Positions 13,153 to 29,554 of a DNA stretch of 33,398 nucleotides are shown piece after piece. Below the pieces are notes generated by a model, which saw nothing but the letters and a program-made list of their open reading frames with translations, had not been told where the DNA came from and ran no database searches. The position numbers were made by a program, and so were the translations under genes. This DNA is from Acidobacteriota bacterium (lineage in GTDB: Bacteria > Acidobacteriota > Vicinamibacteria > Fen-336): positions 31,234-64,631 of the forward strand of contig QHVM01000093.1 of NCBI GenBank assembly GCA_003223555.1, read 5' to 3'. Every line of letters begins with the position of its first letter. The first letter of the stretch is position 1.

Positions 13153-13205
13153 GCTCTTCCCTCCTTGGCTTCGTTCGGGGCGCGCCGCGGCCGGGTTGAG
13201 ATGAC

Positions 13206-14558
13206 ATGCTGCGCGCCTTCGCCGACGTTCGTCCCGAAGAGCGGCCGGGCGTCACCGGCGCGTTCCTGACCCTGTTCGGCATCCTGGCCGGTCACACCCT
13301 GCTCGAGACGGCCCGCGACGCCCTGTTCCTGGCCCGCTTGCCCGCTTCGCAGCTGCCCTGGGTCTACCTGGCCATGGCGGTGGTCGCGGTGGGGCTGTCC
13401 CTGGGTCCCGGGCGCAGCGCCCGCGGTCTCACGCGCACGCGGCGCCTCTCCCACCTGCTCGTCTCCTGCGCGCTGGTGACGCTGCTCTTCTGGCTCCTCG
13501 GCTCGTGGCGCAGCCCCTGGACCCTGCGCGCGCTCTACGTCTGGACGGGGCTCGTGGGCACCCTGGCCGGGCTGCAGTTCTGGCTGCTGCTGGGGGAGAT
13601 GTACACGATCACGCAGGCCAAGCGGGTCTACCGGGTGGTCGGCCTCGGCAGCGTGCTGGGGGCGGTGGCGGGGGCCGGGGTGGCGCGGGTCGTCAGCGCC
13701 TACCTGCCCACCTCGTACCTCGTGCTGGCCTCGGCGGTGACGCTGGCCGTCACCGGCCTGGGACCGGCGCTGGTGCTCCGGCGCGCGGAAGGCGCCGGCG
13801 CGGAGACGGCGACCGCTTCGGAGCCGACACCTTCCAACGTGGCCCAGGCCGTGCAGTTCATGCGCGACCATCCCTACCTCACGCGGCTGTCCGGCCTGGT
13901 GCTCGTCTCGACGGTCGCGGTGACGCTGGCCGACTACGTCTTCAAGAGCACGGTGGCGAGGAACATCCCCGCGGCCGGCCTGGGCACCTTCTTTGCGACG
14001 TTCTACATGGTCCTCAACGTGCTCGCCCTGGGGGCGCAGCTCGTGCTGATGGGCTGGATCCTGCGCGTGCTCGGCTTGCACCGCGCGCTGTGGGTGCTCC
14101 CGACGCTGGTCTTCCTCGGATCGGCCGGGGTGGCCTTCGGAGGCGGCCTGCTGGCCGCGCTCCTGCTCAAGTCCGCCGACGGCGCCCTGCGGCCCTCCCT
14201 CCACCGCACGACCACCGAGCTGCTCTTCCTGCCCATATCCGACGGCCTGCGTGCGCGGGCCAAGCCCCTCATCGACGTGGTCGGGCAACGGGGCGGGCAG
14301 GCCCTGGCCTCGGTTTTCATCCTCGGCGAGCTGACGCTGCACCGGGGCGACTACGCGCTGGCCGGGGTGGCCGCGCTGCTGTGCGTGGTGTGGATCGCGT
14401 GGGCGCTCGAGCTGAAGCCCCACTACCTGGAGCTGTTCGGGGCCGCGCTGTGGACCTGGGCTCGCTGGAAACGCTCATCGCCGCCCTCAGCAGCCGGGAC
14501 GACGCCGAGGTGCGGGGCGCCATCGACCTCCTGGCCGCCGAGGGGCGCGCCAGGCTGA
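13206..14558 (+). CDS. ATP/ADP-translocase-like (TLC/MFS) carrier domain, frame broken at its 3' end
   Basis: The first 415 or so residues are a polytopic membrane domain with about 11 hydrophobic helices. Landmarks shared with NTP/NDP exchange transporters are SDVRP-like FADVRPEERPG at the N-terminus, LLETARDALFLARLP, and GLRARAKPLIDVVGQRGGQA in the late loop. Reading is sensible up to YLELFGAAL (codon 14448-14450), after which this frame turns to Arg/Ser/Pro junk and stops at 14558, while the other frame continues as HEAT repeats. The natural product was probably one carrier-HEAT polypeptide. The frame change equals loss of 3n+1 bases. As written, the carrier alone would be made with about 35 spurious C-terminal residues. 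The start at ATG 13206 has only a weak upstream GAG. Confidence 0.75.
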   Translation: MLRAFADVRPEERPGVTGAFLTLFGILAGHTLLETARDALFLARLPASQLPWVYLAMAVVAVGLSLGPGRSARGLTRTRRLSHLLVSCALVTLLFWLLGSWRSPWTLRALYVWTGLVGTLAGLQFWLLLGEMYTITQAKRVYRVVGLGSVLGAVAGAGVARVVSAYLPTSYLVLASAVTLAVTGLGPALVLRRAEGAGAETATASEPTPSNVAQAVQFMRDHPYLTRLSGLVLVSTVAVTLADYVFKSTVARNIPAAGLGTFFATFYMVLNVLALGAQLVLMGWILRVLGLHRALWVLPTLVFLGSAGVAFGGGLLAALLLKSADGALRPSLHRTTTELLFLPISDGLRARAKPLIDVVGQRGGQALASVFILGELTLHRGDYALAGVAALLCVVWIAWALELKPHYLELFGAALWTWARWKRSSPPSAAGTTPRCGAPSTSWPPRGAPG

Positions 14559-15904
14559 TCCCCGCGCTCATCCTCTATCACCCTTCGCGCCCGGTGGTGC
14601 TGAGGGCGCTGGAGCTGTTCGAGACCTCCGGGCGCTCCGACTTCGTGCCGGTGGCCGACCGCCTGCTCGACCATGCCGACCCCGAGCTGCGGGCGGCCGC
14701 GCTTCGGGCGCGCTCGGCGGCCATGCCGGACGAGGCCCTCCTGCGGAAGGGTCTAGACGATCCGAGCCCCGTCGTCCGCGCGACCGCCCTGGTGGGCCTC
14801 GTCGCCGGCGGCTGGTTGCCGAAGTCGACCGGCCTCGACGAGCTGCTCCGCACCGCGGAGGCCCAGGCCGCCCTCGCCCGCGCCATCCGCCGCCAGCCGT
14901 CGCCGGCCTTCGAGGACGCCCTGCTGGCGCTGGCCGAGGCCCCCTCGCCCGAGGTGCAGGCCCTCGCCGCGGAGGCGATGGGCGCCGTGAAGAGCCCCCG
15001 GTTCTTTCCCGCGCTCCTCTCGATGCTGGGCACGCGGGAGGCGCGGCGGGCGGCCCGGACGGCGTTCCTGGAGCACGGCGAGGACGCGCTGCGGTTCCTC
15101 GACGAGGCGCTCGGCGACTGGTCGCTGCCCCACGAGATCCGGCGCCACCTGCCCCGCACCATCAGCCGGTTCGCGCCGGCGCCGGCCGCCGCCGTCCTCC
15201 TGCGGCACCTGCTGCCCGAGCCGGCCGGGATGGTCCGCTTCCGCATGATCCGGGGCCTGGGCCGCATCGCGGCCGACCATCCCGACGTGCGGCTGGACGC
15301 GGCGGTGCTGAACGAGGCGACCGCCCGCACGCTGGAGGCCTCGTTCCGACTCATGCACTGGCGCTCCGTCCTGGAGCACGGGGCGGCGGAGGAGCCGCAC
15401 CGGGCCACGCGCGGGCACGAGCTGCTCACGACCCTCCTCCGCGACAAGGAGGTCGATGCAGTGGAGCGGCTCTTCCGCCTGCTCGGCCTCCAATACCGCG
15501 GGGAGGACCTGCGGCAGATCCACCGCGGCCTGCGCAACACCAACCCCAAGGTGCGCTCGGGCAGCCGCGAGCTGCTCGAGAACCTGCTCGATCCGCCGCT
15601 GCGGGAGGCGGTGCTGGCCCTGGTGGACGAGGCCCCCGCCGAGCTGCGCCTCGCCCAGGCGATGGCCTACTACCGGGCGCCCCTGCTCGATTACGAATCG
15701 GTCCTGGTGGCCCTGCTCGAGCAGTCGAGCGAGAGCGTGCAGAGCCTGGCCGCATACCACGTGGGCGAGCTGGGCCTGACCTCCCTCAAGGGCCGACTGG
15801 AGGACATCGAGCTGCGCCGGACGGGCTTCTTCGTCTCCCGGGTGATCGAGCGGGCGCTGCGCCTGCTCGCCGGGCCTCCCGAGGGCCTCGTCCATGCCCG
15901 CTAG
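14450..15904 (+). CDS. HEAT-repeat domain, C-terminal part of the broken translocase-HEAT protein
   Basis: From DLGSLETLIAALSSRDDAEVRGAIDLL onward the frame encodes about 480 residues of helical repeats with alternating hydrophobic faces. Typical HEAT helices are EVRGAIDLL, HPSRPVVLRALELF, DPELRAAALRARS, DPSPVVRATALVGLVA and SESVQSLAAYHVGELG. There is no TM segment, so it is probably a cytoplasmic scaffold. A GTG at 14450 could serve as a local start, but no ribosome-binding site is there, and the segment follows directly from the carrier's last helix. I read it as the detached C-terminal domain of one gene. Its stop overlaps the next gene's ATG by 11 bases, so coupling to the cNMP-domain protein is strong. 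Confidence 0.75.
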   Translation: MDLGSLETLIAALSSRDDAEVRGAIDLLAAEGRARLIPALILYHPSRPVVLRALELFETSGRSDFVPVADRLLDHADPELRAAALRARSAAMPDEALLRKGLDDPSPVVRATALVGLVAGGWLPKSTGLDELLRTAEAQAALARAIRRQPSPAFEDALLALAEAPSPEVQALAAEAMGAVKSPRFFPALLSMLGTREARRAARTAFLEHGEDALRFLDEALGDWSLPHEIRRHLPRTISRFAPAPAAAVLLRHLLPEPAGMVRFRMIRGLGRIAADHPDVRLDAAVLNEATARTLEASFRLMHWRSVLEHGAAEEPHRATRGHELLTTLLRDKEVDAVERLFRLLGLQYRGEDLRQIHRGLRNTNPKVRSGSRELLENLLDPPLREAVLALVDEAPAELRLAQAMAYYRAPLLDYESVLVALLEQSSESVQSLAAYHVGELGLTSLKGRLEDIELRRTGFFVSRVIERALRLLAGPPEGLVHAR

Positions 15905-16877
15905 CCCGCACATCTCGGGCCCCGTCGAGCGCCTGCTCGCCCTCAAGCGGATGCCGATGCTGGCCGGCCTGCCCGCCGAGGAGCTGAGTGTCGTGGCGGA
16001 GCACGCCCGGGAGCGCTTCTTCCCCAAGGGAAGCGTCCTGCTGCGCGAGGGGGAGCCGATCTCGGCCCTGCACGTGCTCCTGGACGGCAAGGTCCACCTC
16101 TCGCGTCGCGGCCGGGTGCTCGGTCACGTCACGGCCGACGGCGCGGTGGGCGGAGCGGCGATGCTGGCCCGCGACAGCGACGGCCTGCAGGCGGTGGCCG
16201 AGACGGACACCCTGGCGCTGGAGCTGGAGGCGGATGCTGTCCTCGAGATCTTCGAGGACCACTTCCCCATCCTCCATCACGCGCTGCGCGAGAACTGCCG
16301 GACCCTCATCGACCTCATGGGCCGGCTGCCGGGCGAGCTGTACGCGCAGGCCTTCCCGCCGACCGCGGCCGCCGCGGGACCGGCCTCCGACCTCGACCTC
16401 GTGGACCGGATCGTGTTCTTGCGCCAGGTCTCTCCCTTCAACCGGAGCAGCGTCAACGCCCTCGCCCAGCTGTCGCGGGGCCTGGCCGAGGCGTCCTTCC
16501 CCGCGGGCACCCCACTGTGGGAGGAGGGCGACAGCTCGGGCAGCGTGCTGCTGGTCGTGCGAGGGACGGCGGCCGGGAACGCGCGGGACGGCGCGGCGCG
16601 GTGGAACGCGGGACCGGGGGCGGCGATGGGAGCGGTGGAGTCGATGGCCGAGCGGCCCCGCTGGTACTCGGTCACGGCCGCGACGCCGCTGACCGCTCTC
16701 CACGGCCCGATGGAGGCGCTCATCGACGTCTTCGAGGACAACTTCGAGATGGCGATGGACTACCTGGCGGTGATCGCGCGCTGGCAGATCCGGGTCCTCG
16801 AGATGCGCGTGGCCGCCGGAGGACGCGACCTCGAGCGCTTCTACGGCTGCGACGAAGCCCCCGACGATCCGACCTGA
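15894..16877 (+). CDS. Tandem cyclic-nucleotide-binding-domain protein
   Basis: 327 residues with two cNMP-binding (CAP_ED-like) beta-rolls. The first (about 25-145) reads LKRMPMLAGLPAEELSVVAEHAR, FPKGSVLLREGEPISALHVLLDGKVHLSRRG and then a GAVGGAAMLARDS cassette. The second (about 175-300) reads VSPFNRSSVNALAQLSRG, FPAGTPLWEEGDSSGSVLLVVRGTA and GAAMGAVESMAE. Neither cassette has the full RxA cAMP-binding consensus (FGExALxxxxPRxAT), so nucleotide binding may be lost or altered. There is no DNA-binding or TM part. It overlaps the HEAT frame by 11 bases and is followed by a second carrier. It probably acts as a regulatory subunit for the HEAT/translocase system, by inference from order. Confidence 0.82.
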   Translation: MPASPHISGPVERLLALKRMPMLAGLPAEELSVVAEHARERFFPKGSVLLREGEPISALHVLLDGKVHLSRRGRVLGHVTADGAVGGAAMLARDSDGLQAVAETDTLALELEADAVLEIFEDHFPILHHALRENCRTLIDLMGRLPGELYAQAFPPTAAAAGPASDLDLVDRIVFLRQVSPFNRSSVNALAQLSRGLAEASFPAGTPLWEEGDSSGSVLLVVRGTAAGNARDGAARWNAGPGAAMGAVESMAERPRWYSVTAATPLTALHGPMEALIDVFEDNFEMAMDYLAVIARWQIRVLEMRVAAGGRDLERFYGCDEAPDDPT

Positions 16878-16962
16878 CGGGACGAGCGACCCGGCGTGGC
16901 CGGGGCCTGACGCGCAGCGGCGGCCCGGGCGCCGTCCGATGCTATGCTTCGTGACTCCTGCG

Positions 16963-18315
16963 ATGCCCTCCGATCCCTCGCCACCCGCGTCCTCGCCTGC
17001 TCCCGGCTTCCTCGACCGGCTGCTGCGCCTCTTCAGCGACGTGCGGCCGGGGGAGAGCGGCACCGTGCTCCTGATGCTGCTCAACCTGTTCCTGCTGTTC
17101 TTCGGCTACTACGTCATGAAGGTCGTTCGCGACACCGTCATAGTGGCGAGCGGCGGCGCGACGTCGAAGGCGTACTCCTCCGCCGGGCAGGCGCTGGTCT
17201 TGATGGGCTTCATCCCGCTCTATAGCTGGTTCGCCAGCCAGGTCGGCCGCCTGAAGCTGATCGTGGCGGTGATGCTCTTCTTCATCGGAACCCTGGAGCT
17301 GTTCGCGGTGGGCTTCGCGCACGACGTGTCCTGGATCGCCGTCGCCTTCTTCATCTGGCTGGGCATCTACAACGTCGCCACCCCCGCTCAATTCTGGTCG
17401 TTCGCGAACGATCTCTACCGCAAGGACGCCGGCGAGCGGCTCTTCCCGGTCATCGCGATCGGAGCCACGGCCGGTGCCCCGCTCGGCTCCGAGCTGGCCG
17501 CGCTCCTATTCAAGGCGCGGGTGGGCGTCTTCGCGATGCTTCAGATCGCCGCCGTCATCCTGCTCGTCACGGTCGCGCTCTACGCCGCCGTGCAACAGCG
17601 GGAATCGCGGCGGCCGGGCCAGGCCCGGGTCGCACAGGCGCCCATCGGCTCGGGGCAGGGTTTCTCACTGGTCTTCGCCAGCCGCTACCTGCGGCTCATC
17701 GCGCTGCTGCTGGTCCTGCTCAACGTGGTGAACACGAACGGGAACTTCATCCTGGACTCGGCATTCGACCGGGCGGCGACCGCCGCGGCCACCGCCGATC
17801 CGTCGGTGAGCCGGAAGGACGCGCTGGGAGTCTTCTACGGCCAGTTCTACTTCTACCAGAACATCCTCGCCGTCCTGCTCCAGGCCCTGCTCGTCTCGCG
17901 GATCGTCAAGCGCTTCGGCTTGCCGGGGGTGATCCTGACGCTCCCGTTCGTTGCCCTCGGCGGATATGGGCTGGCGGCCATGAGCGCCGGGCTCGCGGTG
18001 ATCTGGACCGTGAAGCTCGCGGAGAACGCCACCGATTACTCGGTCATGAACACGGGCCGGCAACTGCTGTGGCTGCCCACGCGCCGGGAAGAGAAGTACA
18101 AGGCCAAGCAGACGGTGGACACGTTCTTCGTCCGCGCCGGCGACGTCATCTCCGCCATCCTGGTGGCGGCCGGCGTCGCGGCGCTGGGCCTGCAACCTCG
18201 TGGTTTTGCCGTGCTGAACCTGGTGCTCGTCGGCGCCTGGCTGGCCGTGGCCGTCCTGGTGCTCCGGGAGAACCGCCGGGTCGCGGCGCAGGCGGAGAGC
18301 ACCGAGGCCGCCTGA
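16963..18315 (+). CDS. Second ATP/ADP-translocase-like (TLC) integral membrane carrier
   Basis: About 450 residues and about 11-12 TM helices. FSDVRPGESGTVLLMLLNLF and YYVMKVVRDTVIV at the N-terminus, NVATPAQFWSFANDLY, GERLFPVIAIGATAGAPLGS, and LPTRREEKYKAKQTVDTFFVRAGD in the late loop are typical of the NTP/NDP exchange transporter-like branch found in free-living bacteria. The intact sequence shows what the first carrier should look like. Substrate is not known for these free-living homologues, and nucleotide exchange should not be assumed. I chose ATG 16963; ATG 16939 and GTG 16951 are in frame, and no start has a good ribosome-binding site. The gene is followed 13 bases later by the Omp85 protein. 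Confidence 0.85.
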   Translation: MPSDPSPPASSPAPGFLDRLLRLFSDVRPGESGTVLLMLLNLFLLFFGYYVMKVVRDTVIVASGGATSKAYSSAGQALVLMGFIPLYSWFASQVGRLKLIVAVMLFFIGTLELFAVGFAHDVSWIAVAFFIWLGIYNVATPAQFWSFANDLYRKDAGERLFPVIAIGATAGAPLGSELAALLFKARVGVFAMLQIAAVILLVTVALYAAVQQRESRRPGQARVAQAPIGSGQGFSLVFASRYLRLIALLLVLLNVVNTNGNFILDSAFDRAATAAATADPSVSRKDALGVFYGQFYFYQNILAVLLQALLVSRIVKRFGLPGVILTLPFVALGGYGLAAMSAGLAVIWTVKLAENATDYSVMNTGRQLLWLPTRREEKYKAKQTVDTFFVRAGDVISAILVAAGVAALGLQPRGFAVLNLVLVGAWLAVAVLVLRENRRVAAQAESTEAA

Positions 18316-18328
18316 GAAAGGATCTCCC

Positions 18329-20884
18329 GTGATGACGAGTCGATCGTCCCGGCCCCTGTTCGCCCTGGTGCTCTCGGCTCTCCCCATCGCCGCACGCGCC
18401 CAGGCCCGGGACGCGGCGCCGAGCCAGACGGTGGTGGTGACCGCGGGCGCCCACTACGCGGCGGGCGGCTTGCACCGCTTCCTCCTCGGCGACGACTACC
18501 GGGACCTGTGGACGATGCCGATCCGGGTCGAAGTCCTCGACCTGCACGCCTATGCCGGAGGGTTGAAGCCGGCCTTCCGCGTCGGAGGCCAGGAGACCAA
18601 GGGTCTGGCCATGAAGGGCGCCGACGGCCGGGACTACACGTTCCGGGGCATCGACAAGGACCCGTCGGGCGTCCTGCCCCCCGACCTCCAGGGCACGATC
18701 GCCGAGCGCATCGTGCAGGACCAGATCGCATCCGCCCAGCCCGCGGCGCCGGTCGTGGTGGCGCCGCTGCTGGAGGCCGCCGGCGTCCTCCACGTGACGC
18801 CGAGGATCGTGGTCATGCCGGACGACCCCGCCCTCGGGGAGTTCCGCCCCGTGTTCGCCGGCCTGCTCGGGCTCATCGAGGAGTACCCGCAGCCGGCGAC
18901 GAAGGACCACGCTGGCTTCGCCGGCTCCGCCGAGATCGTCAACGGCACCGAGATGCTCAAGCGCCTCCGCGAGAGCCCCCGCACTCGGGCCGACGCGCGG
19001 GCGTTCCTGCGTGCGCGCCTCATGGACATGTTCATGGGCGACTGGGACCGCCATCTCAAGCAGTGGCGCTGGGCCCGCATCCCCGGCCAGGCGCTCTGGC
19101 CGCCGATCCCGGAGGACCGCGACCAGGCGTTCTCGCGCTTCGAGGGGCTGGTGCTCACGATGGCCCGGCCGCGCCAGCCGCGCTTCGTGGTCTTCGGCCG
19201 CGAGTATCCGGGGATCGTGGGCCTGACCTTCAACGGCTGGGACCAGGACCGCCGGCTCCTCGCGGAGCTGGAGAAGCCAGCGTGGGACGAGATCGCGGCC
19301 GACCTCAAGGGGCGCCTCACCGACAGGGTGATCGAGGACGCCGTCAAGAGGATGCCGGAGGAGTACTACCGGCGCGACGGCGCCCGCATGACCGCGGCGC
19401 TGAAGGCCCGCCGCGACGCGCTGCCCGCCGAAGCGGCCCGCTTCTATCGGCACCTGGCCCGCGAGGCGTACGTGGAGGGCACGGACCAGGCCGAGGCCGC
19501 GCAGATCCGCCATCTCGAGGGCGGTGACGTCGAGGTCGTCCTCGCGCCCGCCGAGGGCGGGGGCGCGCCGTTCTTCCGCCGGCGCTTCCACGCCTCGGAG
19601 ACGCACGAGATCCGCATCGACCTGCGGGGCGGCAACGACCGCGTGACCGTCAGCGGCGGCAAGTCGGGCGCGATCCTGGTGCGGGTCGTCGGCGGCAGCG
19701 GCGAGGACGTGTTCGACGATTCGGCCGGCGGCGGCACCCGCTTTTCCGACTCCGCCGGTGCGCGCCTCGTGGCCGGTCCGGGCTCGCACCTCGACCGGCG
19801 CGAGTACGTCCCGCCGCCGCCCAACAAGCAGGCGCCGTGGATCCCGCCCCGGGACTGGGGGCGCCAGACGCTCACGCAGGCGCTCGTCGGCTTCAACCCC
19901 GATATCGGCGTGTTCCTCGGGCTGCAGCTCGACACGAGGGCGTTCGGCTTCCGCCAGGACCCGTACGCGAACCGGCAGATCATCCGGGCGGGCTATGCGA
20001 CCACGGCGCGCAGCGGGCGGGTCGAGTACGAGGGTGAGTTCCGGCGATCCAACTCACCTGTCTTCACCAGCCTCTTCGCCCGCGCCTCCGGCATCGAGAT
20101 CCTGCGCTTCTACGGGTTCGGCAACGAGACCTCCAACGCCGGGCCGGACCAGTCCTTCAAGGCCAGGCAGGACCAGCTCGTCCTGGAGCCCTCGGTGGGC
20201 GTCTTCCTCACGCCCCGCCTGATGCTGTCCCTGGGTCCGCGCGTGAAGTACGCCAAGACCGATCTCGCGCCCGGCCGATTCATCACCGCGACCCAGCCGT
20301 ATGGCGTCGACAAGTTCGGAGAGGCCGGGCTCGGCGGCGGGCTTCGCTTCGACGGCCGCGATCACCCGGCCAACGCCACGCGCGGGCTGCTTTTCGACAC
20401 GGCGGGCAGCTTCTACCCGAAGATGTGGGACGTGAAGACTGCGTTCGGCGAGGTCCACGGGGACGTGGCCACGTACCTTTCCGCCTCCTCGTCCTTCCTC
20501 CAGCCGACGCTCGCCCTGCGCGCGGGCGGGAAGCGGGTGTGGGGCGACTACCCGTTCTTCGAGGCGGCATTCATCGGCGGCAGCACCACCGTGCGCGGCT
20601 TCCGGGCCCAGCGGTTCGCCGGAGACGGCGCCGTCTACGGCAACGCGGAGCTGAGGCTGAGGATCGCCCGCGTCTTCATCGTCCTCCCGGCGGATCTGGG
20701 CGTGTTCGGGCTCGCCGACGGGGGCCGCGTCTATCTCGCGGGCGAGACGTCGGACAAGTGGCACACCGCCGCGGGCGGCGGGATCTGGCTCTCGTTCCTG
20801 AACCGCGACGCGACGTTCACGCTGGCGGTGGCGACCAGCGAGGAGCGCACCGGCGTGTACATCCGCGCCGGGTTTGTTTTTTAA
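18329..20884 (+). CDS. Outer-membrane Omp85/BamA-type barrel with N-terminal kinase-like domain
   Basis: 851 residues. A signal peptide (to about residue 24, ending AARA) is followed by a roughly 450-residue N-terminal domain. Its features are YAAGGLHRFLLGDDYRDLWTMPI, a lysine-bearing strand RVGGQETKGLAMKG, GDWDRHLKQW (D238 to H242) and PEDRDQAFSRF (D263 to F268). The last two look like the catalytic and metal-binding blocks of distant kinase folds (HipA/CotH/Fam20-like); this is a resemblance, not an identification. The C-terminal third is an Omp85 barrel with the STTVRGFRAQRF lock motif and a terminal Phe (AGFVF). In Bacteroidota a similar region is fused to metallophosphatase-barrel proteins. 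Start GTG 18329 or ATG 18332, both after AAGGA. It sits last in the translocase cluster. Confidence 0.8.
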   Translation: MMTSRSSRPLFALVLSALPIAARAQARDAAPSQTVVVTAGAHYAAGGLHRFLLGDDYRDLWTMPIRVEVLDLHAYAGGLKPAFRVGGQETKGLAMKGADGRDYTFRGIDKDPSGVLPPDLQGTIAERIVQDQIASAQPAAPVVVAPLLEAAGVLHVTPRIVVMPDDPALGEFRPVFAGLLGLIEEYPQPATKDHAGFAGSAEIVNGTEMLKRLRESPRTRADARAFLRARLMDMFMGDWDRHLKQWRWARIPGQALWPPIPEDRDQAFSRFEGLVLTMARPRQPRFVVFGREYPGIVGLTFNGWDQDRRLLAELEKPAWDEIAADLKGRLTDRVIEDAVKRMPEEYYRRDGARMTAALKARRDALPAEAARFYRHLAREAYVEGTDQAEAAQIRHLEGGDVEVVLAPAEGGGAPFFRRRFHASETHEIRIDLRGGNDRVTVSGGKSGAILVRVVGGSGEDVFDDSAGGGTRFSDSAGARLVAGPGSHLDRREYVPPPPNKQAPWIPPRDWGRQTLTQALVGFNPDIGVFLGLQLDTRAFGFRQDPYANRQIIRAGYATTARSGRVEYEGEFRRSNSPVFTSLFARASGIEILRFYGFGNETSNAGPDQSFKARQDQLVLEPSVGVFLTPRLMLSLGPRVKYAKTDLAPGRFITATQPYGVDKFGEAGLGGGLRFDGRDHPANATRGLLFDTAGSFYPKMWDVKTAFGEVHGDVATYLSASSSFLQPTLALRAGGKRVWGDYPFFEAAFIGGSTTVRGFRAQRFAGDGAVYGNAELRLRIARVFIVLPADLGVFGLADGGRVYLAGETSDKWHTAAGGGIWLSFLNRDATFTLAVATSEERTGVYIRAGFVF

Positions 20885-20981
20885 CGCAGAGGTCACGGAG
20901 AACGAACGGAGAGGTCGCAGGGACATTTTGGTGCCGTCTCCGCGTCCTCTCCGTTTTCCTCTGCGTCCTCTGCGTTAAAAA
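20878..20981. repeat. Palindromic intergenic repeat, copy 1 (TTTAACGCAGAGG family)
   Basis: TTTTTAACGCAGAGG at 20878-20892 is perfectly inverted at 20967-20981 (CCTCTGCGTTAAAAA). Between them lie degenerate direct units of AACGGAGAGG / CGCAGGG type on the left and CGCGTCCTCTCCG on the right, so the arms extend imperfectly. It fills the convergent gap exactly, overlapping the stop codons of both flanking genes, and could form a long hairpin acting as a bidirectional terminator. It contains no ORF. Confidence 0.85.
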
Positions 20982-22486
20982 GCTGTTCCAGGCCGGACCA
21001 GCAGCTCGCGGCCGAAGACGCGGGCGAAGCGCTGGTCGAGCGCCCGCGCGCGCCAGCCGAGGAGCGCCGGCATCTCCACCACGACCCCGCCCTCGACGAG
21101 GCGGCAGGAGAGGCTGAGCGCAGCGCCCGGAGAGCACCGCTCCTCCAGGTCGTCGGCCAGAGCGAGGAGGACGCCCGCCCGCTCCACGGCGTCGCGGTCC
21201 TCCCGTCCGAGGAGCGGCGCGTAGCGCGCCGGGCTCGCCTCCTCGTCCCCCGCCGAGAGGACGACCAGGGCCAACAGGGCCACCTGGCGGTGGGTGAAGC
21301 CGTCGAGATCCGAGGCCAGGATGAAGTCGGACGTGTGCTCGCGGCGGTCGAAGAAGTCGAGCGCGCGCCCCATGTCGAGGACGTGGGCGGCGTGGCGCAG
21401 CGCCTCCCGCAGCTCGGGGTCGCCGCCCGGCACGAGCACGCTCCAGAGAGCCTCGGCCACCCCGACGCGGCGCTCCGCGTGGGCGGCGTCCCAGCCCGCG
21501 AAGCGGCCGGTGAGCGAGGCCACCGAGCGCTCGCGCACCTGGGCCGCGGTGGGCATCTCCTCGCCGAGAAGGCTGTAAGCCAGTCCCTCCCGCACCCCCT
21601 CTCCCGATACGCGGACGTGGGCCGCCCCCACGTCGCCCATCAGGGTCTCGATGGCAAGCGCCCCGCCGACGATCGAGTCGCCGCGCTCGCCGCTCAGCCC
21701 CGGCACCCGCTCGCGCTTCTCGAGCCGTCGCGAGGCAAGGGTGGCCGCGACCTCACCCGCCGCGTCCCGCGTCAGGACGTAGCCGTGGACGCGCGGGATG
21801 GGGTAGCTGCGCGCGCGGGCGTCGATCTTGGCCATGTTGCGCAGCGTGCCGCCGGTGCCGACCAGCTCCTCGCCCGGGCGCAGGGCGGGGACCCCGGCGT
21901 CCTCGAGGGCGCGGCGCACGTGCTTGCGCAGCCGGCGCAGCTCGTCCTCGGCCGGGGGGTCGCTCGTCAAGAACGCCTGGCTCAGCCGCAACGCGCCCAG
22001 GGGCAGGCTCCAGGCCCGGTCGAGGGTCCGCTGGAAGAACCGCGTGACCTGCAGGCTGCCGCCGCCGAGGTCGAAGAGCAGCCCGTGGTCCACGGGCAAC
22101 CCGCGCACGCCGCCCAGGAACCCGTATCGGGCCTCGGCCTCCCCCTCGATGACGTCGACCGGGAAGCCCAGCTCGGCCCGGAGCTGCTCCATGAGCTCGG
22201 GCCCGTTCTCCGCGTCCCTCAGCGCCGCCGTCGCCACCCCGACGATCCGCTCCGCCCCCGCGCCCATCGCGAGGGCGCGGAAGTCTCGCAGCGTTTCCCG
22301 GACGTGGGCCACCGTCCCGGGGCTCAGCCGGTGCTCGCGGTCCACGTCGCGGACGAGGCGGAGGGCGGCGCGGCTGCTGGCGAGGATGTGGAGCTGGCGG
22401 GCGGCGTCGAGGCCGTAGCCCACCACCCGCGCGGAGTTGGAGCCGATGTCGATGACCGCGACGCGCCGAGGCGGTCCTACGGCCAC
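20975..22486 (-). CDS. Ppx/GppA-family exopolyphosphatase / guanosine pentaphosphatase
   Basis: About 503 residues. The ASKHA phosphate-binding motifs are VAVIDIGSNSARVVGYG at the N-terminus, GEAEARYGFLGG and FDLGGGSLQV; VGTGGTLRNMAKI and the GERGDSIVGGALAIETLM block follow. The C-terminal 200 residues form the helical HD-like domain (AAHVLDMGRALDFFDRREHTSDFIL and FTHRQVALLALVVL). It hydrolyses terminal phosphates of polyphosphate and/or pppGpp in the cytoplasm; Ppx and GppA cannot be told apart here. GTG 22486 is favoured: GAGG lies seven bases upstream and it overlaps the preceding TPR gene's TAG. The gene ends inside the palindromic repeat, its last codons (GTAF) being supplied by the repeat's right arm. 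Confidence 0.9.
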   Translation of the reverse strand: MAVGPPRRVAVIDIGSNSARVVGYGLDAARQLHILASSRAALRLVRDVDREHRLSPGTVAHVRETLRDFRALAMGAGAERIVGVATAALRDAENGPELMEQLRAELGFPVDVIEGEAEARYGFLGGVRGLPVDHGLLFDLGGGSLQVTRFFQRTLDRAWSLPLGALRLSQAFLTSDPPAEDELRRLRKHVRRALEDAGVPALRPGEELVGTGGTLRNMAKIDARARSYPIPRVHGYVLTRDAAGEVAATLASRRLEKRERVPGLSGERGDSIVGGALAIETLMGDVGAAHVRVSGEGVREGLAYSLLGEEMPTAAQVRERSVASLTGRFAGWDAAHAERRVGVAEALWSVLVPGGDPELREALRHAAHVLDMGRALDFFDRREHTSDFILASDLDGFTHRQVALLALVVLSAGDEEASPARYAPLLGREDRDAVERAGVLLALADDLEERCSPGAALSLSCRLVEGGVVVEMPALLGWRARALDQRFARVFGRELLVRPGTAF

Positions 22487-23022
22487 CGCTGGCCTCGCCG
22501 GGCGGCGTCGAAGGTGGCCTGGGCGGCCGGACGGCTCTCGAAATAAGCCGGATCGAGGCGGGCGGCCGCCTCGAAGGCGGCCACCGCGTCGTCCGCCCGG
22601 CCCAGCTCGGCCAGGGCCACCCCCAGCTCCGCATACGCGGCCGGCTCGTTCGGCCGCAGCCGGATCGACTCCTGCAGCGGCCCCAGCGCGTCGGCCGGCC
22701 GGCCGGTGAGGTACAGCAGGGCGCTTCCGAGCCGCCGCTGGGCCTCGGCATCGCCGGGGCGGGCGCGCACGTCGTCCCGGTACACCTCGACCGCGTCGTC
22801 CCAGCGCTTCAGGGCGGCCAGCCGGCCCGCCAGCACGCGGCGCAGCGTGGCCGCGCGGGCGGCGGGAAGGGCGAGCGCCAGCGCCTGCTGGCATGCGGTC
22901 ACGCCCTCCTCGCCGGGACGCTCCAGGCACTCCCTCACGATCTCCGACTTCGGGCCGGCGGCGGCCGCGACGCCGGGGAGAGCCGTGCCCAGGAGCGGCG
23001 CCAGGAGCAGGACCGCGCTCAG
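22477..23022 (-). CDS. Secreted TPR protein with an apparent CTG start
   Basis: About 181 residues: a signal peptide (LSAVLLLAPLLGTALP then GVAAAA) and three or more TPR-like helical pairs (DDAVEVYRDDVRARPGDAEAQRRLG, ADALGPLQESIRLRPNEPAAYAELG and DDAVAAFEAAARLDPAYF). The frame has no ATG, GTG or TTG that keeps the signal peptide, and none in the region just upstream. AAGGAGG lies four bases before a CTG at 23022, and this CTG overlaps the dehydrogenase stop as CTGA, mirroring the GTGA and ATGA couplings elsewhere in the window. An ATT just before it is too close to the ribosome site. The protein is probably periplasmic, between a dehydrogenase and a phosphatase. No partner can be named. Confidence 0.8.
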   Translation of the reverse strand: MSAVLLLAPLLGTALPGVAAAAGPKSEIVRECLERPGEEGVTACQQALALALPAARAATLRRVLAGRLAALKRWDDAVEVYRDDVRARPGDAEAQRRLGSALLYLTGRPADALGPLQESIRLRPNEPAAYAELGVALAELGRADDAVAAFEAAARLDPAYFESRPAAQATFDAARRGQRWP

Positions 23023-24125
23023 AATGCCTCCTTGTTCACGACGTACGGGACCTTGCCGGGCGAGCCATAGCGATTCTCCAGCACGTCGATCACCGCCTGG
23101 ACGGTGCGGCCGGCCATGCCCACGTCGGGATCGGGCGAGAGCCGCGTGGCCCGGGCGGCGGAGGCGAAATGATGGAACACCCGCAGCTTGAGCTTCAGCC
23201 GGTCGTCGCGCAGGGGGCTGTCGGGCGGCAGCGGCTCGTTCTCGAAGACGTCGAGGGCCGCCCCGGCGATCCAGCCCTCGAGCAGCGCCTTGGCCAGCGC
23301 GTTCTCGTCCACCACCGGCCCGCGGGAGGTGTTCACCAGGTAGGCGGTGGGCTTCATCATCTTCAGGCGCTGCTCGTCCATGAGGTGATACGTCGGCCAG
23401 TCCGACTCGCCCGGCCGGGTCAGGGCCACGTGCAGCGTCACGAAGTCGGCCCGTTTGAGCGCCTCTTCGAAAGCGACGTACTCGATCGCCTGCCGCCGCG
23501 GCGCCAGCCCTTCCCGATGCCGCAGCTCCAGGATGCGCCGCACGGACTCGACGAACCGGTGGTCCTGGAAGACGGGGTCGTGGCACAGGACGTCCATGTC
23601 GAAGCCGACCGCCTTCTTGATGAAGCTCTTGCCGATGCGGCCGGTGCCGATGACGGCCACGGTCTTGCCGGTGACCTCGTCTCCCAACCAGGGATGCCAG
23701 GGATGCCAGGTGGACCAGGTCCGCTCGCGCACCATCTGCTCGCTCGGCCAGGTCTTGCGGGCGGCGCAGCCCATGATGAGGAACGCGAACTCGGCGGTGG
23801 CGTCGGTCAACACGTCCGCGGTGTTGCTGAAGGGAATCTTGTGCTTGTTGGCCGCGGCGCGGTCGATGTTGTCGAAGCCCACCGCGTCCTGGGCCACCAC
23901 CTTCAGCTTGGCCGCCCGGCCGGCTGCGAAGACCTCCTCGTCGATCTTGTCGCGCAGGGTGGTGATGAGGGCGTCGACGCCGCCCTTGACCTTCTCCAGC
24001 ACGAGGCTCTTCGGCGGCGGCTCGATCTGGCCGTAGACCTCCAGGTCCCAGCCCTTCTGCCGGAGCCGGTCGAGCGCCTCCTGCCCGATGTCGCACGTGG
24101 CGAAGACGCGATAGCGCTCAGTCAA
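23019..24125 (-). CDS. D-isomer-specific 2-hydroxyacid dehydrogenase
   Basis: 368 residues. The Rossmann motif VAVIGTGRIGKS (G160 to G165) is followed by DMDVLCHDP, whose Asp after the second strand suggests NAD preference. Substrate residues fit the family: NTSRGPVVDE (catalytic Arg), DVFENEPLPP (Glu) and FHHFASAA near the C-terminus as the His block. An acidic insert and ELRHREGLAPRRQ between the domains make it longer than typical glyoxylate reductases (about 330). A nine-base tandem repeat near 23690-23710 encodes HPWHPW. Start TTG 24125 follows AAAAGG. The substrate could be glyoxylate, hydroxypyruvate, phosphoglycerate or another 2-oxoacid. It is coupled to the TPR gene by CTGA, and palindromic repeat copy 2 lies just upstream, between it and the aminotransferase. 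Confidence 0.88.
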   Translation of the reverse strand: MTERYRVFATCDIGQEALDRLRQKGWDLEVYGQIEPPPKSLVLEKVKGGVDALITTLRDKIDEEVFAAGRAAKLKVVAQDAVGFDNIDRAAANKHKIPFSNTADVLTDATAEFAFLIMGCAARKTWPSEQMVRERTWSTWHPWHPWLGDEVTGKTVAVIGTGRIGKSFIKKAVGFDMDVLCHDPVFQDHRFVESVRRILELRHREGLAPRRQAIEYVAFEEALKRADFVTLHVALTRPGESDWPTYHLMDEQRLKMMKPTAYLVNTSRGPVVDENALAKALLEGWIAGAALDVFENEPLPPDSPLRDDRLKLKLRVFHHFASAARATRLSPDPDVGMAGRTVQAVIDVLENRYGSPGKVPYVVNKEAF

Positions 24126-24135
24126 ACAATTGCCT

Positions 24136-24252
24136 TTTAACGCAGAGGACGCAGAGAAACGGAGAGGACGCGGAGGACCTTGGGGAACGACTGTACATTC
24201 TATTCATCCCTCTGCGTCCTCTTCGTTCGTTCTCCACGACCTCTGCGTTAAA
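24136..24252. repeat. Palindromic intergenic repeat, copy 2 (TTTAACGCAGAGG family)
   Basis: TTTAACGCAGAGG at 24136-24148 is perfectly inverted at 24240-24252. The left arm continues with ACGCAGAG, AACGGAGAGG and ACGCGGAGG; the right arm has CTCTGCGTCCTCTTCG and CTCCACGACC, so the whole 117 bases is an imperfect palindrome built of 9-11-base units like copy 1. The centre (GACTGTACATTCTATTCATC) is unrelated to copy 1. It separates the aminotransferase stop from the dehydrogenase start on the minus strand and could attenuate read-through. Confidence 0.85.
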
Positions 24253-24261
24253 GAGCCTTCG

Positions 24262-25385
24262 TCATGCTTCGATCAGTTGCTTGATGCGGCGCAGCGCTTC
24301 CTCGATGTTCTCCAGGCTGTTGGCGTACGAGAAGCGCAGGTGCCCCTCGCCGAACTCGCCGAAGGCGGTGCCGGAGAGGCAGGCGACCCCGGCCTCCTCG
24401 AGGAGCTTGTCGGCCAGGACGCGGCTCGAGAAGCCCGGGGACGCGCGCACTGGAAGCCGGGAATCGCCCGCAACCCGTCCAGGGTGGCGTCGCGGCGGCG
24501 GCGGAACTCGGCCACCATGCGCTCGACCGCCGACTGGTCCTCCTTCAGCGCGGCCACGCCCGCCATCTGGCTGAAGGTCGCGGTGCAGGAGGTGGCGTTG
24601 GTCTGCAGCTTGGCCACCACCTGGGCCATGGGCGCGGGCATGACGCCGTAGCCGAGCCGCCAGCCGGTCATCGCATAGGTCTTGGAGAAGCCGTCGAGGA
24701 CGATGGCCAGCGGCTCCATGCCGGGCAGGGCGGCGATCGAGACGTGCTCACCGTCGTAGAGGATCCGCGAGTAGATCTCGTCCGAGAGCACGGGCACGCC
24801 GTGCCGGGCCGCGGCATCGGCGATCGCCCTCAGCCCGCTCTCGGGGATCGTGCCTCCGGTCGGGTTGTGGGGGTAGTTCAGGATGATGAGGCGCGTCCGC
24901 GGCCCGACGCGGCTCACGAGCTGGTCCACGTCGAGGCTGAACGCCTGGTCCTCGAGCAGCCGCACGGGGACGGGGTTGCCCCCGATGTAGCGGATCATGG
25001 ACTCGTAGATCGGGAAGCCCGGGTTGGGGTAGAGGACCTCGTCCCCCTCGTCGATGAGGGCCAGGATCACGAAGAACAGGATCGGCTTGGCCCCCGGGGT
25101 CACCACCACCATCTCCGGCGTGGCCCGCATGCCGCGGCGGCGCGCGGTGTCCTCGGCGACGGCCTCGCGCAGCTCGGGGATGCCCGCCGAGGGGCCGTAG
25201 TGCGTCGCCCCCGCTTTCAGCGCGCGCACCGCGGCCTCGCTGATGTGGGGCGGGGTGTCGAAGTCGGGCTCGCCGATCTCCAGGTGGACGACGTTCCTGC
25301 CCCGCGCTTCGAGCGTGCGGGCGCGGACGAGGACCTCGAAGGCGGTCTCGGTCCCCAGCCGCGCCATCCTCTGCGACAGCCGCAT
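24262..25385 (-). CDS. Class I/II PLP aminotransferase, disrupted by internal loss and frameshift
   Basis: Fold type I aminotransferase of the aspartate aminotransferase-like branch: [24 protein letters not shown], a [15 protein letters not shown] loop, DEIYSRI, and [17 protein letters not shown] with the PLP lysine at residue 235. Reading is good to IPGFQCARP (about 24438). The next conserved block, in family members a GAFYxFPN stretch, is absent, and the homologous sequence resumes in another frame as [40 protein letters not shown], keeping the substrate-binding Arg and ending at TGA 24262. The frame change equals loss of 3n+1 bases. Read literally, translation continues out of frame to 24273 without that Arg and would be inactive. 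ATG 25385 has GGGAGG upstream. Transaminase family is certain; the substrate is not. Confidence 0.85.
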
Positions 25386-25517
25386 CCCCCCGCCTCCCGG
25401 GACGCCTAATGTATCCCAGTCTTCGACCGGCGGTTCAGGAGCGGGAGAAGGGACGAGGGCAAGCCGCGGCGGGACCGCGCCCCGACGCGCGCGATCCCGC
25501 CCGCCGAGAATGGACCG

Positions 25518-25938
25518 TCAGAACAAGAACCTCACCCCGACCTGCGCCTCGCGCGGCGGCAGACGCTGGCCGTGAAGATGTTGGGGATGTCCAGCACCTT
25601 GCTGCCGCTGGCGCCCGGCGCCCGCTGGCGTATCGCGAGCGTCGGATGGATGCCGAGGGTGGCGATGTTGTCCTCGGTCCGGGAGTACGTCATCTCGATC
25701 ACCTGCCCCAGCTCCGCGGTGGTGCTGCGCACGAGGGGCGCCTTCCCCACCACCTGCACCTCCTCGCTCATCGCCCCGACCTGCAGCGCGATGTCGAGCC
25801 GCGTCGTCTGGGCGATCTGGACCACGATCCCGCCCCGCAGGTACTTCTTGAAGCCGGACTGCTCGACCGTCGCCGGGTAGGCGCCCGGCGGCAGGAGGGG
25901 GATCGTGTAGAGCCCCTCGGAGCGCCCACCGAGCGCCT
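25518..25938 (-). pseudogene. Remnant of an Oar-like TonB-dependent receptor
   Basis: The fragment begins without a start codon at GLYTIPLLPPGAYPATVEQSGF (carboxypeptidase-regulatory-like fold), then GGIVVQIAQTTRLDIALQVGAMSEEVQVVG and the opening of a plug (LVRSTTAELGQVIEM). It then jumps to TYSRTEDNIATLGIHP, which resembles a late barrel strand, and IPNIFTAS. A frame change near 25567 leads to RLPPREAQVGVRFLF and a stop, a typical C-terminal beta-strand ending in Phe. So the 5' end and most of the roughly 800-residue barrel are gone, and only parts of both ends remain. It starts exactly where the GntR gene's TAG ends. It is not expected to be functional. Confidence 0.75.
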
Positions 25939-26691
25939 CTAGCCCGACCGTGCCCGGCGGCCTTCGTGACGGACCCGCCACTCGGCCGACGTGAGGCCAC
26001 GCAGCCGTCCCGACACCTCCTCGAAGCCGTAGCGGACGTGCGCGCGCATCGCGGCGTCGGCCCGCCCCGGATCGCCCGCAACCAGGACGCCCGCCAGCTC
26101 GGCGTGGAAATGCGGGGGCAGGGGCGTGCGGCGGCCGGCGACGTCGAAGAGCCAGTTCAGGATGAGGACGTGGTTGCGCTCGATCATCTGCCGGAGGAGG
26201 TCGCTGCCTGCGTGCTCGGCGATGTGCATGTGCAGCCGGACGTGATGGGAGTGGACCTTGAAGCCGAAGGCGGGATCGTCGCCCCGGGTGGCCAGGCGGA
26301 CGAAGAACGCGTCCACGTGACGGGCGAGGCGCCCCAGCTCGAGCCGCTGTCCCGGAGTGGCCCGCTCGGCGAAGAGGCGGGCCGATTGCGACTCGAGCGC
26401 CTCCCTCAGCTCGTACAGCTCCCGGACGTCCTTCTCGGTGGGGACGCGGACGCGGGTGCCGGCCCGCGGGCGGCTCTCCACCAGGCCGTCGCCTTCGAGG
26501 CGCCGCAGGGCCTCGGCGACGGGCACGATGCTCATCCCGAGCTCGCGGGCCAGGCGCCGGCGCGAGAGCGGAGTCCCGGGCCGGAGCTGGCCGCGGAGGA
26601 TCTCCTCGCGGATCGCGAGGTAGGCGCGGACGGCGAGGCTCACCCGGGAGGCGGGGGCCAGCGGCGCGCCCGGGGCAGGGGTCCTCGACAC
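25939..26691 (-). CDS. GntR-family transcriptional regulator (FadR/FCD type)
   Basis: 250 residues. The winged helix at about 20-85 contains REEILRGQLRPGTPLSRRRLARELGMSIVPVAEALRRLEGDGLV, the GntR signature. The C-terminal FCD domain (about 95-235) is all-helical with ELYELREALESQSARLFAE and His residues (VHSHHVRLHMHIAEHAGS and ERNH) that could bind a metal or a carboxylate ligand. It binds DNA as a dimer and responds to a small organic acid in known relatives; its effector here is unknown. GTG 26691 has AAGGAGG six bases upstream and a TATGAT box at 26715-26720. Its former target may have been the adjacent TonB receptor, now a remnant directly downstream. Confidence 0.92.
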   Translation of the reverse strand: MSRTPAPGAPLAPASRVSLAVRAYLAIREEILRGQLRPGTPLSRRRLARELGMSIVPVAEALRRLEGDGLVESRPRAGTRVRVPTEKDVRELYELREALESQSARLFAERATPGQRLELGRLARHVDAFFVRLATRGDDPAFGFKVHSHHVRLHMHIAEHAGSDLLRQMIERNHVLILNWLFDVAGRRTPLPPHFHAELAGVLVAGDPGRADAAMRAHVRYGFEEVSGRLRGLTSAEWRVRHEGRRARSG

Positions 26692-26714
26692 TCGGAGCCT
26701 CCTTGCGCTTCCGA

Positions 26715-26720
26715 ATCATA
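26715..26720 (-). promoter_or_regulatory. Putative -10 box (TATGAT) for the GntR gene
   Basis: On the minus strand GGCTATGATTC lies 24 bases upstream of the GTG, with AAGGAGG between. It matches the -10 consensus at five of six positions and shares the GGCTATNAT core with the boxes at 520-525 and 30607-30612. No good -35 is seen. Confidence 0.45.
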
Positions 26721-26788
26721 GCCAATCCGCCGGCCGGCTGCCGCGGTGAGCCCGTCCGCCGGCCGCCCCATCAGACCCGAGACGGAGC

Positions 26789-26794
26789 TAACAT
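26789..26794 (+). promoter_or_regulatory. Putative -10 box (TAACAT) for the sensor-like gene
   Basis: TAACAT ends six bases before the A of ATG 26800, the distance expected between a -10 box and a transcription start at the start codon. No Shine-Dalgarno lies in the gap. This would be a second case of a leaderless arrangement besides ppc. Confidence 0.3.
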
Positions 26795-26799
26795 CTCGC

Positions 26800-27351
26800 A
26801 TGCTCCCTGCCCTCCGGCTGGCCGCGGTGATGGTCCTGGCCCAGGCCGGAGCCGCCGCGCTGCAGGCGCGGGAGACGGCCTACGCGCGGCTGCCGCTGGC
26901 CGACCGGATCGGGAACGACCCCGAGCTAGTCAAGGCAATCGTGGCCAAGAACCAGGTCGTCGAGTCACCGGGCGAGATCCGGCGCATCGACGAGGAGTGG
27001 ATACGGAACCGCCGCTATCCCCTCCGAAAGGCCCTGACCTCGGGCCCGTGCGCGGACCGGCTGCGCAGGCTCGTCCGGGACGACAAGCTGGTGGTCGAAG
27101 CGTTCCTGATGGACGACCGGGGCGGGCTCGTGTGCGCCACCGTCGAGACCTCCGACTACTGGCAGGGGGACGAGGCCAAGTGGCAGAAGACCTACCGCGA
27201 CGGGGCGGCCGTCTTCGTCGACGAGCCGGCTCTCGACGCGAGCACGGGCACCTTCGCCGTGCAGCTCAGCCGGCTGGTGAGCGACGCGCACGGCAAGGTC
27301 GGCGCGCTCACCCTGACCCTGAAGGTGCCCCGCTCGCGCACCCGCCGATGA
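26800..27351 (+). CDS. Secreted PDC/Cache-like sensor domain protein
   Basis: 183 residues with a signal peptide (MLPALRLAAVMVLAQAGAAAL). The mature part, about 160 residues, reads as a single extracellular sensor domain of PDC/dCache character: an N-terminal helix (LADRIGNDPELVKAIVAKNQ), RIDEEWI, VEAFLMDDRGGLVCATVETSDYWQGDEAKWQKTY, and VFVDEPALDASTGTFAVQLSRLVSDAHGKVGALTLTLKV. In histidine kinases and chemoreceptors such domains are followed by a TM helix; here there is none and the protein stops, so it is a free-standing periplasmic module. ATG 26800 is chosen because the longer frame adds residues before the signal peptide. Its 3' end overlaps hemY by 44 bases on the opposite strand. The partner is unknown. 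Confidence 0.72.
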   Translation: MLPALRLAAVMVLAQAGAAALQARETAYARLPLADRIGNDPELVKAIVAKNQVVESPGEIRRIDEEWIRNRRYPLRKALTSGPCADRLRRLVRDDKLVVEAFLMDDRGGLVCATVETSDYWQGDEAKWQKTYRDGAAVFVDEPALDASTGTFAVQLSRLVSDAHGKVGALTLTLKVPRSRTRR

Positions 27352-28720
27352 GGCGTAACGCCGCGGCGGCGGCGGCCCGCCCGTCGCCGATGCAGTCGGG
27401 CAGGCCCGTGCCCCTGAGCCCCGCTCCGGCCAGGAACAGGCCGGGCCGGCCCGCCAGCCGCGCCTCGATCCGCGCCATCCGGTCGAGATGGCCGACCTCC
27501 AGCTGCGGGGTCCCGGCCGGCCAGCGGTAGACCCGCGCCAGCACCGGCGCCCCGCGCAGCCCCAGCAGCGGCCCCATCTCCTCGCGCACGGTCGTCAGCA
27601 GGCTCGCGTCGTCGCGCGCGACCGCTTCCGGATCGCGCCGCCCGCCCAGGAAGGCGCGGAGGAGGACGTGGCCGTCGGGCGCCCGGCCGGCGAACTTGCT
27701 CGAGAAGAAGCTGCAAGCGCTCGTGCGCAGGCCCTCGCGGCGCGGGACGACCAGGCCGTGCCCGTCGAGCGGATGAGCGACGTCGCTCCGCCGGTAGCCC
27801 AGCAGCACGGTGGCCGTCGAGACGAACGGGATCGCGGACAGCAGGCCGGCCAGCTCGCTGTCCTCGCCGGCCAGGAGGCTCGCCGCGCGCGGTGCCGGCA
27901 CGCAGAGGACGACCGCGGCGGCTTCGGCGCTTCCTCCCCCCGCCAGCTCGAGCCGGAAGCGGCCGACCGCCCGCGCCACCGACGCCACCGCCACCCCGGT
28001 CCGTAGCGCCGCGGGCGGCACCCGCTGCACCAGCGCCTCGACGAGCGCTCCGAGGCCGTGTTTCAGCGAGAGGAAGGCGCTCGAGCCGGCGGAGGCTGCA
28101 TCGGCATCACGCGCGGCCCGGAAGCCACGGATGAGGCTCCGGTGCCGCGCTTCCAGATGGGCGAAGCGCGGGAACGTGGCCTTCAGCGAAAGCCGCTCGG
28201 GATCACCGGCATGGATCCCGGCCAGCAGCGGCTCACCCAGCCGCTGCACCGCCTCCGGGCCGAGCCGGCGCCGCAGGAAGGCCGCGATGGACTCGTCACC
28301 GCCCCCGCCTCGCGGCAGCACGAGGTCCAGGCCCATGCGCAGCTTTCCCGGCCACGAGAAGAGCCGCGTGCGCAGGAGCGGACCGATCCGGGTCGGGATG
28401 CCGAGCACTCCTTCCGGCAGCGGGTGCAGCCGGCCTCGATGCAGGACGTAGACGGTGCGGGGGAGGGTCGTCGGCACGAGCTGATCCCCCAGGCCCAGCT
28501 CGCGGCAGAGGGCGATCCCGTCGGGCTTCTGGGCCAGGATCGAGTCCGGACCGGCTTCGACGAGGAAGCCGTCCGCGCGCTCGGTCCGGATGACCCCGCC
28601 CCAGCGCGGCTGTGCTTCGAAGAGGGTGAAGGGCGCTCCGGCGGCGGTCAGCTCGTAAGCCACGGCCAGGCCCGTGATGCCGCCTCCCACGACCGCGACC
28701 CCCGCCTCAGCGACCGGCAT
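27308..28720 (-). CDS. hemY: Oxygen-dependent protoporphyrinogen/coproporphyrinogen oxidase
   Basis: 470 residues. FAD dinucleotide fold at the N-terminus (VAVVGGGITGLAVAYEL), then FEAQPRWGGVIRTERADGFLVEAGPDSIL, the standard PPO/CgoX signature, and LAGAGLRGTGLPDCIGDGRAAA at the C-terminal FAD site. It oxidises the porphyrinogen by removing six electrons in haem synthesis. In a hemE-hemH-hemY order as in Bacillus, CgoX activity is possible, but protoporphyrinogen oxidase cannot be excluded. ATG 28720 lies within the hemH 3' end (14-base overlap). Because hemH has lost 3n+1 bases, its early frame now reads straight into this gene, so a 748-residue HemH-HemY fusion would be translated from the hemH ATG. 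The 3' end overlaps a convergent gene by 44 bases. Confidence 0.93.
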   Translation of the reverse strand: MPVAEAGVAVVGGGITGLAVAYELTAAGAPFTLFEAQPRWGGVIRTERADGFLVEAGPDSILAQKPDGIALCRELGLGDQLVPTTLPRTVYVLHRGRLHPLPEGVLGIPTRIGPLLRTRLFSWPGKLRMGLDLVLPRGGGGDESIAAFLRRRLGPEAVQRLGEPLLAGIHAGDPERLSLKATFPRFAHLEARHRSLIRGFRAARDADAASAGSSAFLSLKHGLGALVEALVQRVPPAALRTGVAVASVARAVGRFRLELAGGGSAEAAAVVLCVPAPRAASLLAGEDSELAGLLSAIPFVSTATVLLGYRRSDVAHPLDGHGLVVPRREGLRTSACSFFSSKFAGRAPDGHVLLRAFLGGRRDPEAVARDDASLLTTVREEMGPLLGLRGAPVLARVYRWPAGTPQLEVGHLDRMARIEARLAGRPGLFLAGAGLRGTGLPDCIGDGRAAAAAALRLIGGCASGAPSGSG

Positions 28721-29554
28721 GATGGCGGCGGACGAGGTCGGCCAGGGCGCGGATGAAGGTCGGTGAGACGTTGAGCGAATCGGTGCGGCCCAGGCCGAGG
28801 CCGCGCGTGCGCGCGAAGGCCCGGGCCTGGACGTCCCGATGGGCGCGACGAGGACCTGCCGCAGGCCCGCCGCCGCCAGCTCGGCCAGCGTCTCCTCGAG
28901 CGAAGGCCCGAGCCACGGCTCGGGGGTCCGGCCCGCGCTCTGGTACGCCTGCCGGTATCGCCCGAGCCCCGCTCGCGCGGCGACGCCGCGGGCCGTCGCC
29001 GCCACCTGCGCCGGGTAGGGATCGCCCTCCTGCACGACCCGCACCGGCAGGCTGTGGGCCGTGAAGACGACCTCGTCCCAGGCTGCTCGCGCCCGGGCCG
29101 AGCGCAGCTTCTCGGCGAAGGCCTCGAGCAGCTCCGGGTGATCGTGCCAGGAGTCCACGAAGCGGACCGTCATGCCGTCCGGGCGCGCGTGCTCCACCGC
29201 CTCGCGGTACTTGCCGACGCTCAGGCTCGAATACTGCGGCGCCAGGGGCAGGGCCACGATGTCGGTGACTCCCGCGGCGGAGGCCTCGCGCAGGGCATCG
29301 GCCACGAAAGGCCGCCAGTTCCTCATGCCGACGAGGACCGGCGTGCCGTCCGCCAGCTCTCGCTGCAGCGCGGCCGCCTGGGCCCGCGTGATGTCGGCGA
29401 GGGGCGACCGGCCGCCGACGGCGGCGTAGTTGCGCCGCATCTCCTCGACCAGCTCGGCCGGGGGCTCCCGGCCGCCGCGCACGAGCCGGAGGTACTCCGG
29501 CATCTGGTCGAGGCTCTCGGGAGTCCCGTGGGCGAGGAGGAGGACCCCCTTCAT
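28707..29554 (-). CDS. hemH: Ferrochelatase, disrupted near the C-terminus with its metal-site glutamate missing
   Basis: The N-terminal two thirds are a clear ferrochelatase: GVLLLAHGTPESLDQMPEYL, RYYAAVGG-like NYAAVGGRSP, GMRNWRPF, LPLAPQYSSLSVGKY, and TAHSLPVRVVQEGDPYP with the active-site His. The frame is good to VLVAPIG (28837). In relatives the next residues are FV(S/A)DHxExLYD, containing the essential Glu (Glu264 in B. subtilis). Here they are absent and homology resumes one frame over as DVQARAFARTRGLGLGRTDSLN through to TGA 28707. Matching the M. tuberculosis-type consensus gives a loss of 13 residues minus two retained bases, 37 bases. As written, the product cannot insert metal. 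ATG 29554 overlaps the hemE stop (ATGA). Either the gene is dead or the sequence is faulty here. Confidence 0.88.

Follow-up and report, generated by a model that had tools for sequence, protein, structure and literature searches.

Frame-breaking base losses in an Acidobacteriota draft genome are probably scaffold joins without N at under-estimated gaps

Several genes in a 33,398-nucleotide window of an Acidobacteriota draft genome (G000:C119:31234-64631; genome of 5.39 Mb in 151 contigs, 98% complete) appear to be interrupted in the same manner, which raises the question of whether the breaks arose in the cell or during assembly. The original prediction, made from the window alone, was that four reading frames had each lost 3n+1 bases, with about 37 bases fitting every case, and that a systematic assembly fault was the leading explanation and a recurrent hairpin- or repeat-mediated deletion the other; alignment to intact homologues and a search of the remaining genome were proposed as checks. 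Here, the window begins 1 base past a run of 15 N and ends 1 base ahead of a run of 4 N, so no N lies inside it, and a coding-frame model trained on the same genome (third-position G+C of 0.95) placed in-gene frame switches at 14449, 24451-24474 and 28835. The features discussed below are collected in Table 1.

Table 1. Split genes and putative joins in the window, with the evidence for each.
Feature	Position	Strand	Evidence
TLC-type ATP/ADP translocase domain and HEAT repeats, one gene split in two frames	13201..15871	+	frame switch at 14449; Pfam TLC and HEAT_2 in the two ORFs
Putative N-free join, 40 bases missing (3n+1)	14449..14451	+	related loci carry 40 extra bases
Class I/II aminotransferase gene, split	24269..25367	-	coding model; Pfam Aminotran_1_2
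Putative N-free join, 37 bases missing (3n+1)	24437..24438	-	L016-L021
Presumed TonB-type receptor remnant (regulatory-like N-terminal domain and C-terminal end)	25518..25918	-	CarboxypepD_reg; translations; stop codon
Probable N-free join, loss class 3n+1	25560..25572	-	C-terminal peptide resumes in another frame
Frame-preserving net loss of about 2,166 bases, compared with G010	25688..25690	-	two match rows of G010:C320; coordinate arithmetic
hemH (ferrochelatase) gene, split	28729..29560	-	coding model; Pfam Ferrochelatase in ORF 27308-31015
Putative N-free join, 37 bases missing (3n+1)	28834..28835	-	L028 (G010)

Compared with related genomes, the window lacks 40 bases at 14450, 37 at 24437 and 37 at 28834, with abrupt borders. 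All three losses are of the form 3n+1, two being equal and the third differing by one codon, and the relatives used keep an open frame over the sites (928 aa in G001, 394 aa in G003, and 637 aa up to the locus edge in G010). At 14450 the 40 extra bases were found in nine of the nine related loci aligned (L005-L013, taken from 10 family loci), as one gap in seven of them, two pieces in L005 and three in L010, and a second measurement reproduced the value in eight of the nine. The loss of 37 bases predicted in the aminotransferase gene was exact in L016 (G003) and recovered in both alignments of L017-L020 (G005, G010, G007 and G012), while in the more distant L021 the pieces total 37 in one alignment. 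The 37 bases predicted to be missing from hemH were likewise exact, this value coming from L028 (G010), the single fetched relative that spans the junction. Homologue alignment thus gave precise lengths and the predicted class at three junctions, although the lengths are unequal, and at the fourth, in the receptor remnant, the direction of the shift only.

The open frame of G001 contains the ATP/ADP-translocase-like domain together with the HEAT repeats, and the two are probably parts of one protein in this lineage. ORF 27308-31015 on the minus strand, at 1,235 aa, combines most of hemH with the following amine-oxidase (hemG-like) gene and contains both Pfam domains; it is probably a spurious fusion left by the loss in hemH.

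We take the fourth broken frame to be a TonB-type receptor, following the original call and a C-terminal pattern of such receptors; the CarboxypepD_reg domain scores 31.0 bits in it, slightly below the cut-off of 32.3. One close relative (G010) stops matching the remnant at 25572. A frame shift in the 3n+1 direction near 25560-25572 agrees with the break predicted near 25567. The same remnant has further lost a stretch of about 2,166 bases without a change of frame, a loss absent from the original account; it is too long for the join mechanism proposed below and may be a genuine deletion or another kind of misassembly.

The search for further in-gene losses was successful. A same-genus genome, G001, was compared with 257,409 bases of the draft (236,091 coding) in 70 chains, at an identity of 0.83 over 174,868 aligned bases, and 11 N-free losses were found at which the G001 frame is intact and the draft frame broken (34, 46, 34, 40, 37, 52, 22, 73, 22, 40 and 47 bases; one of the two 40s is the window site at 14450). 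Ten of these appear as a single gap, the 73-base loss being split around 12 bases, and one more loss of 35 bases was measured against G010. With sizes of 22-73 elsewhere in the genome, against 40, 37 and 37 in the window, one shared length is not upheld: 37 bases is a typical loss size, and a fixed size is not supported. The G001 list, in which a change must be seen as a frame switch by the coding model, contains no frame-breaking change below 22 bases. The reverse list (draft frame intact, G001 frame broken) has three entries, namely one single base near a chain end and a neighboring pair of 8 and 11 bases with opposite sign, and none in the 257 kb aligned is comparable to the 11 losses.

A similar asymmetry was obtained with a frame-shift finder which, under the same settings, returned 18 junctions in 731 kb of the draft (24.6 per Mb) versus 1 in 450 kb of G001 (2.2 per Mb); over 1.68 Mb of the draft it returned 53 (31.8 per Mb). 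Frame-breaking junctions are therefore roughly ten times as frequent as in the same-genus genome, more than chance would give. They affect unrelated genes, among them essential ones, and are rare in the close relative, which we assume to have been assembled separately.

In total, 34 sites were compared with relatives, of which 19 were N-runs and 15 candidate junctions without N. Eight of the N-free candidates are losses; L150:757 shows a difference of just 3 bases from G001, L153:13379, with 35 bases more than G001, was excluded from the losses, and five have no match across the junction (L132:4076, L145:2932, L147:4424, L151:2089 and L152:2621). L153:7452 (+25, in a low-complexity stretch) and L122:7607 enter no count, nor do L149:18143 (+35) and L129:8297 (+13), which were labeled as frame-changing and failed the test for an intact frame in the relative. 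Beside a frame change, the draft exceeds G001 by 11, 26 and 35 bases at L127:17643, L143:3189 and L153:13383, respectively; none of these stretches enters either list, and they resemble gene boundaries. At L129:16116 the draft lacks 54 bases present in G001, with clean borders and no change of frame; this may be another N-free join, indistinguishable from natural variation.

Runs of N in the same genome provide a direct view of how its gaps were sized. The first 670 kb contain 19 N-runs of 4-166 bases plus one wholly masked contig; 1.68 Mb contain 36, three of which fill a whole contig (348, 2,326 and 2,982 bases), the largest of the others having 178. Ten of the 19 could be aligned across (in L120, L121, L122, L126, L128, L146, L149 and L153), and against G001 the true gap minus the number of N was 40, 43, 16, 34, 3, 21, 29, 13, 31 and -2. 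Nine of the ten runs are thus too short, with a mean shortfall of 23 bases. Match rows give an error near 0 instead of -2 for the run in L122, and for an eleventh run, in L132, match rows alone indicate about 84 true bases against 49 N. Because masking by an operator would give errors of 0, the N-runs are assembly gaps.

The gene secA is present as a single copy in three pieces that jointly span the greater part of the model. It has lost 34 and 46 bases, while the corresponding frame in G001 is open for 1,080 aa. SecA is essential, and a living cell carrying its sole secA in such a broken state is therefore not plausible.

From these sequence comparisons we put the probability at about 0.87 that the breaks are an assembly artefact, namely N-free scaffold joins with under-estimated gaps. 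A systematic assembly fault remains the leading explanation, as originally proposed: the losses occur genome-wide, they are nearly absent from the same-genus relative, they strike the only secA, and the N-runs have wrong lengths. Contigs ending at short unassembled stretches would be linked through read pairs, and the scaffolder would estimate the gap too short and write as many N as it had estimated; an estimate of zero or below would leave the contigs abutted without N and the unassembled bases lost. Read pairs that span a gap yield biased estimates, as Sahlin et al. are said to have described in 2012; the bias would be toward low values, and we infer that it lies behind the short gaps here and that N-free joins and N-runs come from one scaffolding step. 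With a shortfall of about 23 bases, many short gaps would be assigned a size of zero or less, leaving no N to write. Three observations do not fit the join model easily. Low estimates of this size predict losses below 22 bases, yet none is listed, and to explain their absence the shortest gaps would have to be filled in an unproven gap-closing step; losses of 46, 47, 52 and 73 bases exceed the largest N-run error (43); and the excess of 3n+1 (10 of 11 losses, 7 of 10 N-run errors) is not predicted by a scaffolding artefact.

The losses might instead have been made within contigs, through wrong short-cuts taken by a graph assembler, with the scaffolder not involved. Excerpts of PMC7111523 report that local assembly errors are suspected to be prominent in IDBA-UD assemblies, and the losses of 46-73 bases, being larger than the N-run errors seen, would be accommodated more readily. 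However, false overlaps should leave shared bases at the borders, and over 13 sites border microhomology averaged 0.85 base versus 0.77 at random positions; short gap estimates are moreover seen directly at N-runs of the same genome. We regard errors inside contigs as unlikely, and scaffold joins remain the preferred reading. Real decay in a lineage shedding genes by random small deletions would explain why the relatives are intact and this genome broken. It would also be expected to produce many 1- or 2-base frameshifts, whereas the smallest frame-breaking change listed has 22 bases, and it would have to account for a sole secA struck twice, which leaves it very improbable. The recurrent repeat- or hairpin-mediated deletion inside the cell, the original alternative, is equally hard to credit: it would suit sizes that are alike (mostly 34-47) and the 3n+1 lean of the measured losses, but the 13 sites yielded no direct repeats, stable hairpins or unusual G+C at their borders, with microhomology at chance level, folding stability of the lost stretches near the middle of the local controls (rank 0.49, expectation 0.5) and mean G+C of 0.65 in the lost stretches and 0.69 in their flanks, and the border codon phase varies.

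The agreement of the window frames on 3n+1 extends in part to the genome. In the comparison with G001, 10 of the 11 measured losses fall in the 3n+1 class (p = 0.012 in a two-sided test that takes 3n+1 and 3n+2 as equally likely), and without the window site the figures are nine of 10 and p = 0.021. A wider frame count, which is blind to in-frame losses, gave 3n+1:3n+2 as 35:18 at a threshold of 35 (p = 0.027), 24:16 at a stricter threshold of 60 (p = 0.27) and 50:21 at a looser threshold of 20, which admits more ordinary gene overlaps of the same class. These counts imply that 3n+2 losses are common and that the agreement within the window is partly local. Since three of the five N-free candidates without a match across the junction are in the 3n+2 class, the measured set may over-represent 3n+1. 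The sole junction in G001 is also 3n+1. Among N-run errors, seven of the 10 are 3n+1, the same lean as at N-free joins.

Two sources of this lean were considered and rejected. Detection bias would favor one class, and in simulation both classes were recovered about equally (0.65 of 323 versus 0.62 of 320 simulated losses at threshold 35; 0.53 versus 0.50 at threshold 60). Contig breaks at third-position strain variants would put both end bases of a missing stretch at third positions; the border phases found were 1, 2 or 3, several being ambiguous. It is improbable, if slightly less so than gene decay or deletion in the cell, that the lean is real and reflects contigs of a population genome that end at pairs of strain variants, the two members of each pair occupying the same codon position. 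In that event the unassembled stretch, counted from one variant through the other, would have a length of 3n+1, and the assembly breaks would bear a codon-phased signature.

We regard the gene breaks as most probably not biological, and as an assembly artefact they hold low biological interest; the original lead was right in kind and wrong about a fixed length. Their significance is practical, as unmarked N-free joins make intact genes look like pseudogenes. Scaling 11 losses per 236 kb of coding sequence to 5.4 Mb gives an estimate of about 250 frame-breaking losses in this genome, and claims of gene loss, pseudogenes, recoding or frameshifts drawn from such drafts need to be checked against relatives or reads.

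Excerpts of the literature describe related faults. PMC7111523 reports, in the part considered, that N are inserted where scaffolds are joined, and describes local assembly errors together with the false genes to which such faults lead; PMC4864936, which cites Sahlin et al. 2012, notes in its relevant section that pairs spanning a gap form a truncated distribution that biases gap estimates; passages of PMC9326850 describe biased estimates with long tails in several scaffolders, and those of PMC4262078 add little. None of these excerpts says in which direction the gap estimates are biased. The present case shares with the short-read draft scaffold gaps of PMC7111523 the joins made through read pairs, the estimated N-runs and the wrong protein-coding genes that spread to databases. 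It differs in that the passages concerned describe N placed despite overlap and unsupported consensus, whereas here many frame-breaking joins are free of N, with bases missing and unmarked. With the gap-size bias of Sahlin et al. 2012 it shares the idea that a truncated sample of insert sizes, if ignored, biases the gap estimate; here, however, the direction and size of the error (a shortfall of -2 to 43 bases) come from comparison with relatives rather than from reads.
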